64,000 nt of DNA from Natronosalvus caseinilyticus. GTDB taxonomy: Archaea > Halobacteriota > Halobacteria > Halobacteriales > Natrialbaceae. The notes under the pieces are model-generated. The model had not been told where the DNA came from. It searched no databases and was given only the letters and a program-made list of their open reading frames with translations. The translations under genes and the position numbers were made by a program. The stretch lies in assembly GCF_017357105.1 (NCBI RefSeq), contig NZ_CP071596.1, forward strand, positions 992,001 to 1,056,000, written 5' to 3'. How positions within the stretch are numbered: the stretch's first letter is position 1; every line of letters starts with the position of its first letter. This document shows, piece after piece, positions 6,271 through 53,058 of this stretch.

Positions 6271-6789
6271 TCAGTCGGGTGGCGTCTCCGACTCTGAAGC
6301 GGCACTGTCGCGGCGCCGACGAACCGCCCACAGGAGCGTAGCACACGACCCGGATGCGAGGACCGGCCACCGGTCGGTACTCTGATAGAGATCCCCAGAC
6401 GGAATCCGATACTCGAGGATCGGCCAGAAGACGGCGTAGGACTGGCCCGTCGGGGTGATCAGCAGGATGTCGAGAAGGTGGTGAGAGACGACGCCGACGG
6501 CCACCAGCGCGAGGACTCGTTTGCGATGATCCGGCGCCACCAGCAGAACGAGAAGACCGGTCACGAGCGCGGATCCGACGAGAGTGTGCAACGGCTCCCA
6601 CGAAAACGGGAGTCCGAACACGCCCGCGACAAACCCGTCCGAAGCGACCAGTTCGATCCGGTTCAGATCCGGACTCGCGGCGCCAACCATGACGAGCGAG
6701 ACGTGTGCCGGACGGAGCCGCTCGTATCGAAGCGAGAGGAGCGTGCCGATGCTGTACCCGACCAGCAGGTGCGTGAGCAGATCAGCCAC
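6271..6789 (-). CDS. DUF457-type membrane-bound metal-dependent hydrolase-like protein
   Basis: 172 residues from the GTG that opens MADLLTHLLVGY. That start overlaps the stop of the upstream gene by a few bases, the typical arrangement for coupled translation. An ATG at 6846 is also possible but would need a 65-base overlap. The family (YdjM/DUF457, inner-membrane, presumed metal-dependent) is recognised from the early Asp-His pair, ASPDL after the second helix, HTLVG in the middle and the SHHLLD motif near 115. About four hydrophobic helices are visible. Function is not established for haloarchaeal members. Confidence 0.82.
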   Translation of the reverse strand: MADLLTHLLVGYSIGTLLSLRYERLRPAHVSLVMVGAASPDLNRIELVASDGFVAGVFGLPFSWEPLHTLVGSALVTGLLVLLVAPDHRKRVLALVAVGVVSHHLLDILLITPTGQSYAVFWPILEYRIPSGDLYQSTDRWPVLASGSCATLLWAVRRRRDSAASESETPPD

Positions 6790-9685: not shown

Positions 9686-9825
9686 GTCGACGTCTCTGGT
9701 CCACGGTGGGATAACCGTTGGGCGGTCATTTGCCGTGTTCTCGGCGCCGGGATTGTGTCATGACCTGTCGAACGTGGGAGCTGCTCGAGTGAGAACCGCT
9801 TCTGATACGAGTGGAAAAGGAACGT

Positions 9826-9923
9826 CGCCTCCCGGATTTGAACCACGGTCGGAGCAAAGCTCCTCCCTGATTCAAATCCGATCGGATGGATTTCTCTCGC
9901 TCACGGGTTGTTCGCGAGAGAAG
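9826..9923 (-). repeat. tRNA-Phe tail repeat unit
   Basis: 9826-9844 repeats 19 bases of the tRNA-Phe 3' end (true copy at 9927-9945). An inverted T-arm copy lies at 9869-9879 (GATTCAAATCC), forming a long stem with 9834-9844. A second perfect 9-bp stem (9892-9900 with 9914-9922) stops directly at the mature tRNA end. Bases 9862-9879 are identical to 52888-52905 in the tRNA-Ser array. Confidence 0.85.
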
Positions 9924-9997
9924 TGCCGCCTCCCGGATTTGAACCGGGGACAGCTCGATCTTCAGTCGAGTGCTCTCCCAGTCTGAGCTAAGGCGGC
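9924..9997 (-). tRNA. tRNA-Phe (GAA)
   Basis: A full cloverleaf of 74 bases. The 7-bp acceptor stem pairs GCCGCCU with AGGCGGC. The D-arm contains GGGAG, the anticodon stem is CUCGA/UCGAG with loop CUGAAGA (anticodon GAA), and the T-arm reads CCCCGGUUCAAAUCCGGGA. The discriminator is A. No CCA is encoded and no intron was seen. Confidence 0.96.
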
Positions 9998-11896: not shown

Positions 11897-12141
11897 CTGC
11901 ACGGGTTCCAGCGTTCGGTGCGTCGTCTCGGGGGGAGTTTTCGTGTGTCCGGTGATCCGTTTTTCTTCTCACATCGTTTCGACGATTTTCCTGGGTCTCG
12001 AGTCGTAACCGGTTGAGGTCAAGTTCTTCGAGTCCGCTCGTCGCCTCTCTCGTGCGTGGTCTCGATGTCGCGCCCGCCGCTCGAAGGTCGGTCTGTAGTG
12101 GGCAGCAACTCGAGCTATTGGGATGGGCTCGAGCCATTGAG
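11897..12141. other. Intergenic region before the tRNA-Val tail repeats
   Basis: No gene is supported. Near 12121-12140 there is a short extra ATGGGCTCG piece that matches the outermost bases of the tRNA-Val tail. This suggests a degenerate further copy next to the complete tail copy at 12142. Confidence 0.4.
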
Positions 12142-12267
12142 ATGGGCTCGGGCGGGTTCGAACAACGCGAAGACGGTCGCTCTCGCGTTCGCTCGAGCGC
12201 TGCGACTTCTCTCGTTCGAACCGCCCTCGCGTACAGTTCTGTGACTCACTGTCGTTCGTTCCAGAAA
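12142..12267 (-). repeat. tRNA-Val tail repeat unit
   Basis: 12142-12163 is an exact 22-base copy of the tRNA-Val 3' end (true copy 12267-12288). An inverted T-arm copy follows at 12214-12226 (GTTCGAACCGCCC), giving a large stem-loop. The spacer between them carries AGACGGTC and CGACTTCTC words that recur in the tRNA-Ser array. The second stem next to the tRNA is weak here (about 5 bp). Confidence 0.8.
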
Positions 12268-12341
12268 TGGGCTCGGGCGGGTTCGAACCACCGACCTCGG
12301 CCTTGTAAAGGCCGCGTCATAACCAGCTAGACCACGAGCCC
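12268..12341 (-). tRNA. tRNA-Val (UAC)
   Basis: A 74-base cloverleaf with a GGGCUCG/CGAGCCC acceptor, a D-arm with GGUUAUGAC, an anticodon stem CGGCC/GGCCG enclosing UUUACAA (anticodon UAC, valine), and a T-arm GGUGGUUCGAACCCGCC. The discriminator is A. CCA is not encoded. Confidence 0.95.
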
Positions 12342-46612: not shown

Positions 46613-47362
46613 ATGGAACAGTCAGTCCTGCTCACGGGGGCTGGAGGCCGCGTCGGGACCGCGATCCTCGACCGCCTCGCCGACGACTACTACTGGCGGC
46701 TGCTCGACCGCGAGCCACTGACCGGCGAGTACGCGGCGGACCACGAGTGCGTCGTCGCCGACATCGTCGACGAGACGGCCGTCCGCGAGGCCATGGAGGA
46801 CGTCGACGTCGTCATCCACCTCGCGGGCGACCCGCGTCCGGAGGCCCCGTGGGACAGCGTGTTGCGAAACAACATCGACGGTACCCAGACGGTCCTCGAG
46901 GCCGCCGTCGGCGCCGGCGTCGAGAAGGTCGTCTTCGCCTCCTCGAACCACGCCGTCGGTGCCTTCGAGACCGACGAGCGAACCCCGGACCTCTACCGCG
47001 TCCACGACGAGTTCCGCCTCGACGGGACGGAACTCCCCCGCCCCGGCAACCTCTACGGCGTCTCGAAGGCCGCCGGGGAGACCCTTGGCCGGTACTACCA
47101 CGACGAGTACGGCCTCTCGGTGTGTTGCGTCCGAATCGGGAACCTCACGAAGGACCACCCGCCCGTCGATTACGAGCGCGGGCAGGCGATGTGGCTCTCC
47201 TACCGGGACTGCGCCCACCTCTTCGACCGGACGATCGAGGCCGACTACGGTTACGAGATCGTCTACGGCATCTCCGACAACGACCGTAAGTACTACTCGC
47301 TCGAGCGCGCTCGCGAGGTGCTGGGGTACGAGCCGCGGGACAACTCGGCGGCCCACGAGTAA
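46613..47362 (+). CDS. NAD-dependent glucose-6-phosphate dehydrogenase/uronate dehydrogenase-like (Azf type)
   Basis: 249 residues of the extended SDR family. The NAD motif TGAGGRVG is at 8-15, the catalytic Tyr148 and Lys152 in LYGVSKA, with a Ser at about 110. Haloferax Azf is an NAD-dependent glucose-6-phosphate dehydrogenase and is very close to uronate dehydrogenases in this family. Length and the DPRPEAPWDSV and SSNHAVG segments match. The reaction is oxidation of a sugar at C1. I prefer not to commit to Azf rather than uronate dehydrogenase. Confidence 0.85.
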   Translation: MEQSVLLTGAGGRVGTAILDRLADDYYWRLLDREPLTGEYAADHECVVADIVDETAVREAMEDVDVVIHLAGDPRPEAPWDSVLRNNIDGTQTVLEAAVGAGVEKVVFASSNHAVGAFETDERTPDLYRVHDEFRLDGTELPRPGNLYGVSKAAGETLGRYYHDEYGLSVCCVRIGNLTKDHPPVDYERGQAMWLSYRDCAHLFDRTIEADYGYEIVYGISDNDRKYYSLERAREVLGYEPRDNSAAHE

Positions 47363-52662: not shown

Positions 52663-52976
52663 CGCCGGGACAGGGATTTGAACCACGCGTAGACGGTCCT
52701 GCTCGCTCGCTTCGCTCGCTGTGCGGGCTCCGACTTCTCACGTTCAAACTCTGATTACGTCGTTTCGTGATTTCGGATTGCTCACGTCGCTACGCGCCGT
52801 TCACAGGACGTGGAATCACGAAAACGCCAAGACAGGGATTTGAACCGCGGTCGGACGTGCTCGCTCGCTTCGCTCGCTGTGCGCGACCTCCCTGATTCAA
52901 ATCCCTTCGTTCGCGTTTCTCGCGTCACGGTCGCTCGCGTCGCTACGTGCCGCTCGCGGGGGTTGTACGCGAGAAA
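52663..52976 (-). repeat. tRNA-Ser tail repeat array (two units)
   Basis: Two extra copies of the 16-base tRNA-Ser tail lie at 52669-52684 and 52832-52847 (true copy 52983-52998). Both are followed by one identical 25-base block (52701-52725 and 52860-52884). In unit two an inverted T-arm copy is at 52895-52906 and a perfect 13-bp stem (52914-52926 with 52967-52979) overlaps the mature tRNA end. Each unit is about 150-165 bases. Confidence 0.88.
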
Positions 52977-53058
52977 CGCCAGGACAGGGATTTGAACCCT
53001 GAATCCCGAAAGGGAACACGCTTTCCAGGCGTGCGCCTTACCGTTCGGCCATCCTGGC
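52977..53058 (-). tRNA. tRNA-Ser (GGA)
   Basis: An 82-base type II tRNA with a GCCAGGA/UCCUGGC acceptor, a long variable arm (UUCCCUUUCGGGAUU region) and an anticodon stem CACGC/GCGUG enclosing CUGGAAA (anticodon GGA). The T-arm is CAGGGUUCAAAUCCCUG. The discriminator is G, as usual for serine tRNAs. CCA is not encoded. Confidence 0.96.

Follow-up and report, generated by a model that had tools for sequence, protein, structure and literature searches.

Many tRNA genes of the haloarchaeon Natronosalvus caseinilyticus, and of the class Halobacteria at large, are followed by a short unit that contains two hairpins and an inverted T-arm and closes with a copy of the tRNA gene's own 3′ end (the tail). 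The unit has a defined anatomy and border, is linked to tRNA genes in one fixed orientation, and combines a tail that follows the locus with a spacer that follows the element. In the explanation proposed here, it is a small, non-autonomous mobile repeat whose insertion at a tRNA 3′ end duplicates the tail of that tRNA; on present evidence this could as well prove wrong as right.

The window (the whole stretch of DNA analysed, 64,000 nucleotides) contains tRNA genes for Phe, Val and Ser, with units behind all three. That of tRNA-Val is composed as follows.

12268..12341, minus strand: tRNA-Val, anticodon TAC, the anchor of the unit
12268..12287, minus strand: tRNA-Val's own tail, from T-loop TTC to the discriminator, the duplicated piece
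12236..12267, minus strand: hairpin A, weak, its first base right after the discriminator
12214..12226, minus strand: inverted T-arm, antisense to the T-loop and the 3′ T-stem strand
12154..12223, minus strand: hairpin B, made of the inverted T-loop, the inner module (12163-12213) and the T-loop of the tail copy
12143..12162, minus strand: tail copy, 20/20 identity with the tRNA-Val tail
12122..12135, minus strand: decayed short extra acceptor-end copy (GGCTCGAGCCCATC) past the tail copy

On the minus strand hairpin A directly adjoins the end of the tRNA; the inverted T-arm, hairpin B and the tail copy come after it in that order. Positions 12142-12163 and 12267-12288 are identical over 22 bases at an offset of 125 (the 20-base tail and one flanking base per side), and this 22-mer occurs twice on the plus strand of the window and never on the minus strand. 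The copy is not due to chance: a control stretch of the same length upstream of the tRNA holds a comparable copy for none of 42 tRNAs of the same genome. The inverted T-arm at 12214-12226 (GTTCGAACCGCCC) is one base short of the tRNA's own. Two spacer words, AGACGGTC at 12171 and CGACTTCTC at 12203, are found again in the Ser array (52691 and 52731); AGACGGTC has one more plus-strand occurrence in the window, at 46887. The inner module has the form GAGAGAAGTCGC..GACCGTCTTCGCGTTG, unlike the commoner CAGGGAG..GACCG class, and a similar form is present at tRNA-Leu(TAG) of the same genome. Past the tail copy, at 12099-12142, we observed shorter decayed acceptor-end repeats with a period of ~19 bases.

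A preliminary description, made from sequence alone, had claimed the 22-base exact tail copy at a 125-base offset, the inverted T-arm at 12214-12226, the spacer words common to the Ser array (with the single outside occurrence of AGACGGTC noted above) and the same arrangement at all three tRNAs of the window, and all four claims held. It had also called the second stem weak and had inferred decay or a variant class. Weakness was confirmed for hairpin A (RNA z -0.89) and failed for hairpin B, which folds well as RNA (z -2.94 and -3.72) and has no good fold as DNA (z -0.84). The Val unit is a variant class and not simply decayed; the label of decay suits hairpin A and the short extra copies past the tail, and nothing else.

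The arrangement at the other two tRNA genes, with two units in tandem behind tRNA-Ser, is as follows.

9923..9997, minus strand: tRNA-Phe with a unit of the CAGGGAG class
9892..9923, minus strand: hairpin A of the Phe unit
9833..9880, minus strand: hairpin B of the Phe unit
9823..9842, minus strand: tail copy of the Phe unit, 2 mismatches in 20
52977..53058, minus strand: tRNA-Ser (GGA) with the two-unit array
52916..52976, minus strand: hairpin A of Ser unit 1
52836..52904, minus strand: hairpin B of Ser unit 1
52825..52844, minus strand: tail copy of Ser unit 1, 1 mismatch in 20
52763..52824, minus strand: hairpin A of Ser unit 2
52674..52751, minus strand: hairpin B of Ser unit 2
52663..52682, minus strand: tail copy of Ser unit 2, 1 mismatch in 20

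The borders of the duplicated tail were profiled in 74 first units, the rows being selected for no more than 4 mismatches inside the tail. Identity between copy and tRNA was 0.91 at the base before the T-loop, stayed at 0.88-0.99 as far as the base next to the discriminator, was 0.80 at the discriminator itself and fell to 0.50 and 0.42 just beyond it; upstream of the border it was 0.59 at position -2 and then 0.39. Given this sharp profile, the duplicated piece therefore runs from the T-loop through the discriminator, ~20 nt. CCA follows the tail copy in 0 of the 74 first units, and the tail was therefore copied from DNA and not from mature tRNA, which rules out a retro-copy of the mature tRNA. 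The spacers of these first units measure 64-181 nt.

In hairpin B the T-loop of the tail copy pairs with its inverted counterpart. These two arms enclose two G-C pairs, in many cases a tandem G-A mismatch, then a stem of variable sequence and a small loop. In an alignment of 29 of the available sequences (A1; inner length 5-13 only, with the shortest and some others omitted), 98.9% of cells were paired versus 92.6% in shuffles, and 33 cells had changed on both sides versus 9.4 in shuffles. The double changes fall in three of the inner pairs, in one T-loop pair and in the outermost pair. The covariation check proposed in the preliminary description is thus positive; as evidence it counts at the outermost pair and within the inner stem. 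The second inner pair illustrates the variation: it is C-G in 58 of 134 distinct inner sequences, T-A in 45, G-C in 22 and something else in 9. CGNNG makes up the five bases before the copy in 43 of 74 first units, most of them found without the pattern, and probably represents one unpaired G on the 3′ side of hairpin B. The inverted arm matches its own locus somewhat past the T-loop, with mean runs of 1.95 and 2.14 bases versus 0.67 and 0.98 for other tails. Triloops and G-A pairs are a hint that the structure is read as DNA. Val hairpin B, however, beats shuffles only as RNA, and we leave the form of the structure undecided.

Tail copies were counted with a criterion of no more than 4 mismatches in 20, 45-220 nt downstream of the tRNA. 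In the N. caseinilyticus genome, 19 of 43 Rfam tRNA loci carry one, compared with 0 of 42 tRNAs in the upstream control. A covariance model of hairpin B adds a unit at tRNA-Trp, an intron-containing gene that Rfam did not detect, and a displaced unit behind a tRNA-Pro tail. The preliminary description would have been refuted had the remaining tRNA genes lacked tails, and on this count it stands. Among the 19, Leu-GAG apparently has another kind of tail, and another locus, where an integrated element of 6.4 kb has its far end, is a 5′-truncated tRNA-Ser; Leu-TAG, which is not among them, has a unit whose tail has decayed. In four sister genomes, tails were found at 8/19, 9/18, 10/18 and 8/18 of the fetched tRNAs. 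The figure for tRNA-Leu(CAA), 20/34, includes four loci picked for having a unit and is 16/30 without them.

Two loci of the N. caseinilyticus genome combine units with integrases. The displaced unit lies at the end of an apparent 21-kb insertion with a tyrosine integrase, and it was probably this integrated element that pushed the tRNA-Pro unit off its tRNA. There (L367, 1-1550, with L033) the integrase gene ends directly on the tRNA-Pro tail, the unit comes next, and tRNA-Pro(TGG) is ~21 kb away. The 6.4-kb element (L297, G000:C1:1795900-1803600) has two tyrosine-integrase-family genes between an intact tRNA-Ser(TGA) and the truncated copy, and the hairpin unit is placed past that copy. The two tRNA-Lys genes (L012 and L014) have units in common but in exchanged order, as though shuffling had taken place between isoacceptors of identical tail. 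Behind tRNA-Leu(CAA) and tRNA-Leu(GAG) (L039, L107, L328-L357; L045, L122) a different short hairpin is present in distant families, and it ends with an acceptor-end copy (CTTCCCTCGCAA, CACCCACGCATAAT).

Within the class, a strict pattern that represents the commonest sub-class matched 221 of 391 genomes, in 69 of 86 genera, and the reversed pattern had no match in the genomes listed. In a sample of the phylum, 10 of 19 genomes of the class were matched, and none of the 101 genomes outside it. A scan of 84,980 species returned at least 120 stretches with the pattern; the 80 listed have haloarchaeal names, one of them merely 'Euryarchaeota archaeon'. Because CAGGGAG, GACCG and the T-loop words are written into the strict pattern, their conservation within the matches is no evidence. 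Out of 113 matches at 110 loci, 108 lie behind a tRNA on the same strand (94 at less than 150 nt and 14 at 150-892 nt), and hairpin B is inverted in none of these 108. The five matches without a tRNA include two at the edge of the locus (L121 and L167) and two (L070 and L137) behind a tail or tRNA remnant, beside what by eye seems to be an integrase gene's beginning. The fifth, in Haloferax marinum (L175, minus strand, near position 6672 of 8000 counted that way), is a complete hairpin B that closes in a tail-like sequence; it has no tRNA or tRNA remnant nearby and remains an unexplained orphan. At another locus (L068) the unit sits right behind the apparent end of a transposase gene (by eye); tRNA-Lys is 892 nt away, and the unit's tail does not match it.

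The strict pattern had 0 matches in IMG/VR, and no match to the unit was found in phages; on these searches a virus-borne cargo is rejected. Plasmids gave no match for the Phe unit and two for the Val unit, behind a tRNA-Gly and behind an apparent decayed tRNA-Glu. The latter is on the 987-kb plasmid CP031304.1 of Natrinema thermotolerans (L376), where ARAGORN sees no tRNA.

The tail goes with the locus and the spacer with the element. Among 208 distinct spacers, 1444 blastn pairs, several near full length, link units behind tRNAs with clearly different tails. The Ser-GGA and Ser-TGA units of the N. caseinilyticus genome are 87% identical over 93 nt and each closes with its own tail; a Val-GAC and a Met spacer (L141 and L147) are 81% identical over 95 nt. 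Among units whose T-loop sequences differ between tRNA, inverted arm and copy, 27 have a copy that matches the tRNA, 9 have an inverted arm that matches it, and in 4 neither does; all agree in 149 of the 208 and 19 are unclear. These data favour local duplication of the tail over a tail carried in by the element, with the reservation that gene conversion could mimic such a result. CRISPR-like capture of random DNA is excluded, since the spacers are mutually related.

The units could alternatively be attachment-site fossils or miniature tyrosine-integrase elements, whose tail is an attL/attR sequence brought by the element, with crossover in the T-loop. In favour of this, haloarchaeal elements that have tyrosine integrases are known users of the site: a 22-nt tRNA duplication flanks a Haloquadratum walsbyi prophage (PMC3119063), an integrase gene abuts the tail ahead of the displaced tRNA-Pro unit, and the 6.4-kb integrase element lies within tRNA-Ser(TGA). 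Against it, related spacers bear different tails, each fitting its own tRNA; the two integrated elements of the N. caseinilyticus genome are located upstream of the unit, and the parts of their ends that were read show no A or B modules; and viral sequences did not match (IMG/VR with the strict pattern, and phages). We regard this explanation as unlikely.

The units turn over. At tRNA-Leu(CAA), precise occupied and empty sites with the same downstream flank exist within genera (L331-L334 versus L335 and L336; L356 versus L357; L349 versus L350). Tandem arrays of two to four near-identical units occur. Five sister species have four different inner modules at Val-TAC and three at Arg-CCT, the swapped modules sometimes lying beneath a conserved hairpin A. 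Changes numbered 46 of 660 positions in tail copies versus 376 of 3212 in spacers (the pairs are non-independent and the copies pre-filtered), and the tail copies are only mildly conserved, a point against the mobile-repeat proposal.

Two further explanations, both of which we consider improbable, bear on these observations. In the first, no recombinase is involved, and template switching where replication stalls next to tRNA genes, palindrome correction and repeat recombination build and keep the order tail, inverted tail, tail. The locus-specific inverted arm supports it, and the arrays and losses resemble plain repeat recombination. However, conserved modules are common to tRNAs that are otherwise dissimilar, and mismatches are kept that palindrome correction would erase. 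In the second, the unit is a structured RNA or DNA that serves the host in the tRNA trailer (a terminator, processing signal or decoy), spread through vertical descent and gene conversion. The class-wide spread, covariation, fixed orientation to the tRNA, and the kept G-A mismatches and one-sided unpaired G are in its favour. Against it, about half of the tRNAs have no unit; presence, module and copy number vary among sister species; tail copies diverge at over half of the spacer rate; and no Rfam family lies on the unit in four scanned loci, where an E-value scan returned tRNA and four matches far under gathering scores. The Rfam scan of the window gave tRNA families only.

According to the mobile-repeat proposal, insertion would put hairpin A, the inverted T-arm and hairpin B immediately after the discriminator. 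It would also duplicate the local tail (T-loop to discriminator, ~20 nt), and this duplication would keep the tRNA whole. The tail repeats would then permit tandem multiplication, clean loss and module exchange. We infer that a recombinase acting in trans, as yet unidentified, would read the T-loop and the folded hairpin B and make the duplication, and that the structure would be read as DNA, not RNA. Across 106 genomes, Cas1 showed no association with the units (Fisher p 0.84), and two genomes with units (G045 and G046) have no Cas1 match; a Y1 transposase (IS200-type) was present in 44/59 pattern-positive versus 29/47 pattern-negative genomes (p 0.21). In both comparisons the pattern-negative genomes may still contain other sub-classes.

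The proposal has weaknesses. Plain target duplication does not explain an inverted arm that tracks the locus past the 8-base T-loop. A new unit at a previously unoccupied tRNA was not observed, and the occupied and empty pairs could reflect either gain or loss. Clean loss and tandem gain can arise by ordinary recombination between 20-base repeats, and it is possible that gene conversion maintains the identity of the tails. A bolder reading, which we think unlikely, is that of an unrecognised class-wide recombination system in Halobacteria, in which the 20-base tail would be the repeat, the structured gene-less units the cassettes, and the tRNA gene an anchor comparable to the leader of a CRISPR array or the attI site of an integron; a trans-acting recombinase would read the T-loop and a folded single strand, inserting and removing units.

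No description of these hairpin and tail units was found by title or abstract in the open-access literature searched; an earlier account in subscription papers is not excluded. With a tail copy at nearly half of the tRNA loci of one genome and a family that spans a whole archaeal class, the units may mislead annotation of tRNAs and attachment sites. They illustrate how an element can sit at essential genes harmlessly, and offer many natural sites for studying the interplay of T-loop-reading recombinases, Cas1-type integrases and tRNA genes.

Among known systems, tyrosine-integrase elements at archaeal tRNA 3′ ends resemble the units in leaving the tRNA whole and having a direct repeat of the tRNA end of ~20-22 nt (PMC3119063, PMC8371274). 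The units, in contrast, have no genes or integrase, for which their spacers (64-181 nt) are too short, and contain two hairpins and an inverted T-arm; moreover, related units differ in tail, unlike what an element-borne tail would give. Casposons also target a tRNA 3′ end with a long target duplication. The Aciduliprofundum boonei (A. boonei) casposase reads TCAAATC near the end of a tRNA-Pro gene, and the duplication of 14-15 bp begins 8 bp after it (PMC6614799); TCAAATC is, in our own reading, probably T-loop sequence. The duplication of the units, however, includes TTCAAATC itself and does not meet the 14-15 bp/8 bp geometry, the units hold no cas1, and two carriers are without a Cas1 match. 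Terminal inverted repeats, a casposon trait, were not noticed in the units by eye, the only inspection made. With its geometry differing and Cas1 unassociated in the 106 genomes, a casposase or Cas1 is rejected as the mover. For the inferred T-loop-reading enzyme both a casposase kind and a prophage-integrase kind are conceivable, because the casposase reads TCAAATC and haloarchaeal prophages leave 22-nt tRNA duplications.

CRISPR arrays have unrelated spacers between near-identical repeats, a definition that the units, with their related spacers, fail. The PATEs and MITEs of haloarchaea (PMC3119063) are, like the units, small, gene-less, palindromic and non-autonomous. PATEs, however, make no target duplication, whereas the units duplicate the tail; MITEs carry the terminal inverted repeats of a parent transposon; and neither is tied to tRNA genes in the relevant sections of that paper. 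Integrons differ in that the units have no gene cassettes (first-unit spacers being 64-181 nt) and are anchored in tRNA genes, and the relevant sections of a study of archaeal integrons (PMC9668308) do not mention Halobacteria. With integron attC sites (PMC2727003) the units nevertheless have in common a folded hairpin, inverted end boxes, a variable tip, unpaired bases on one side, a fixed orientation and an organisation in arrays.
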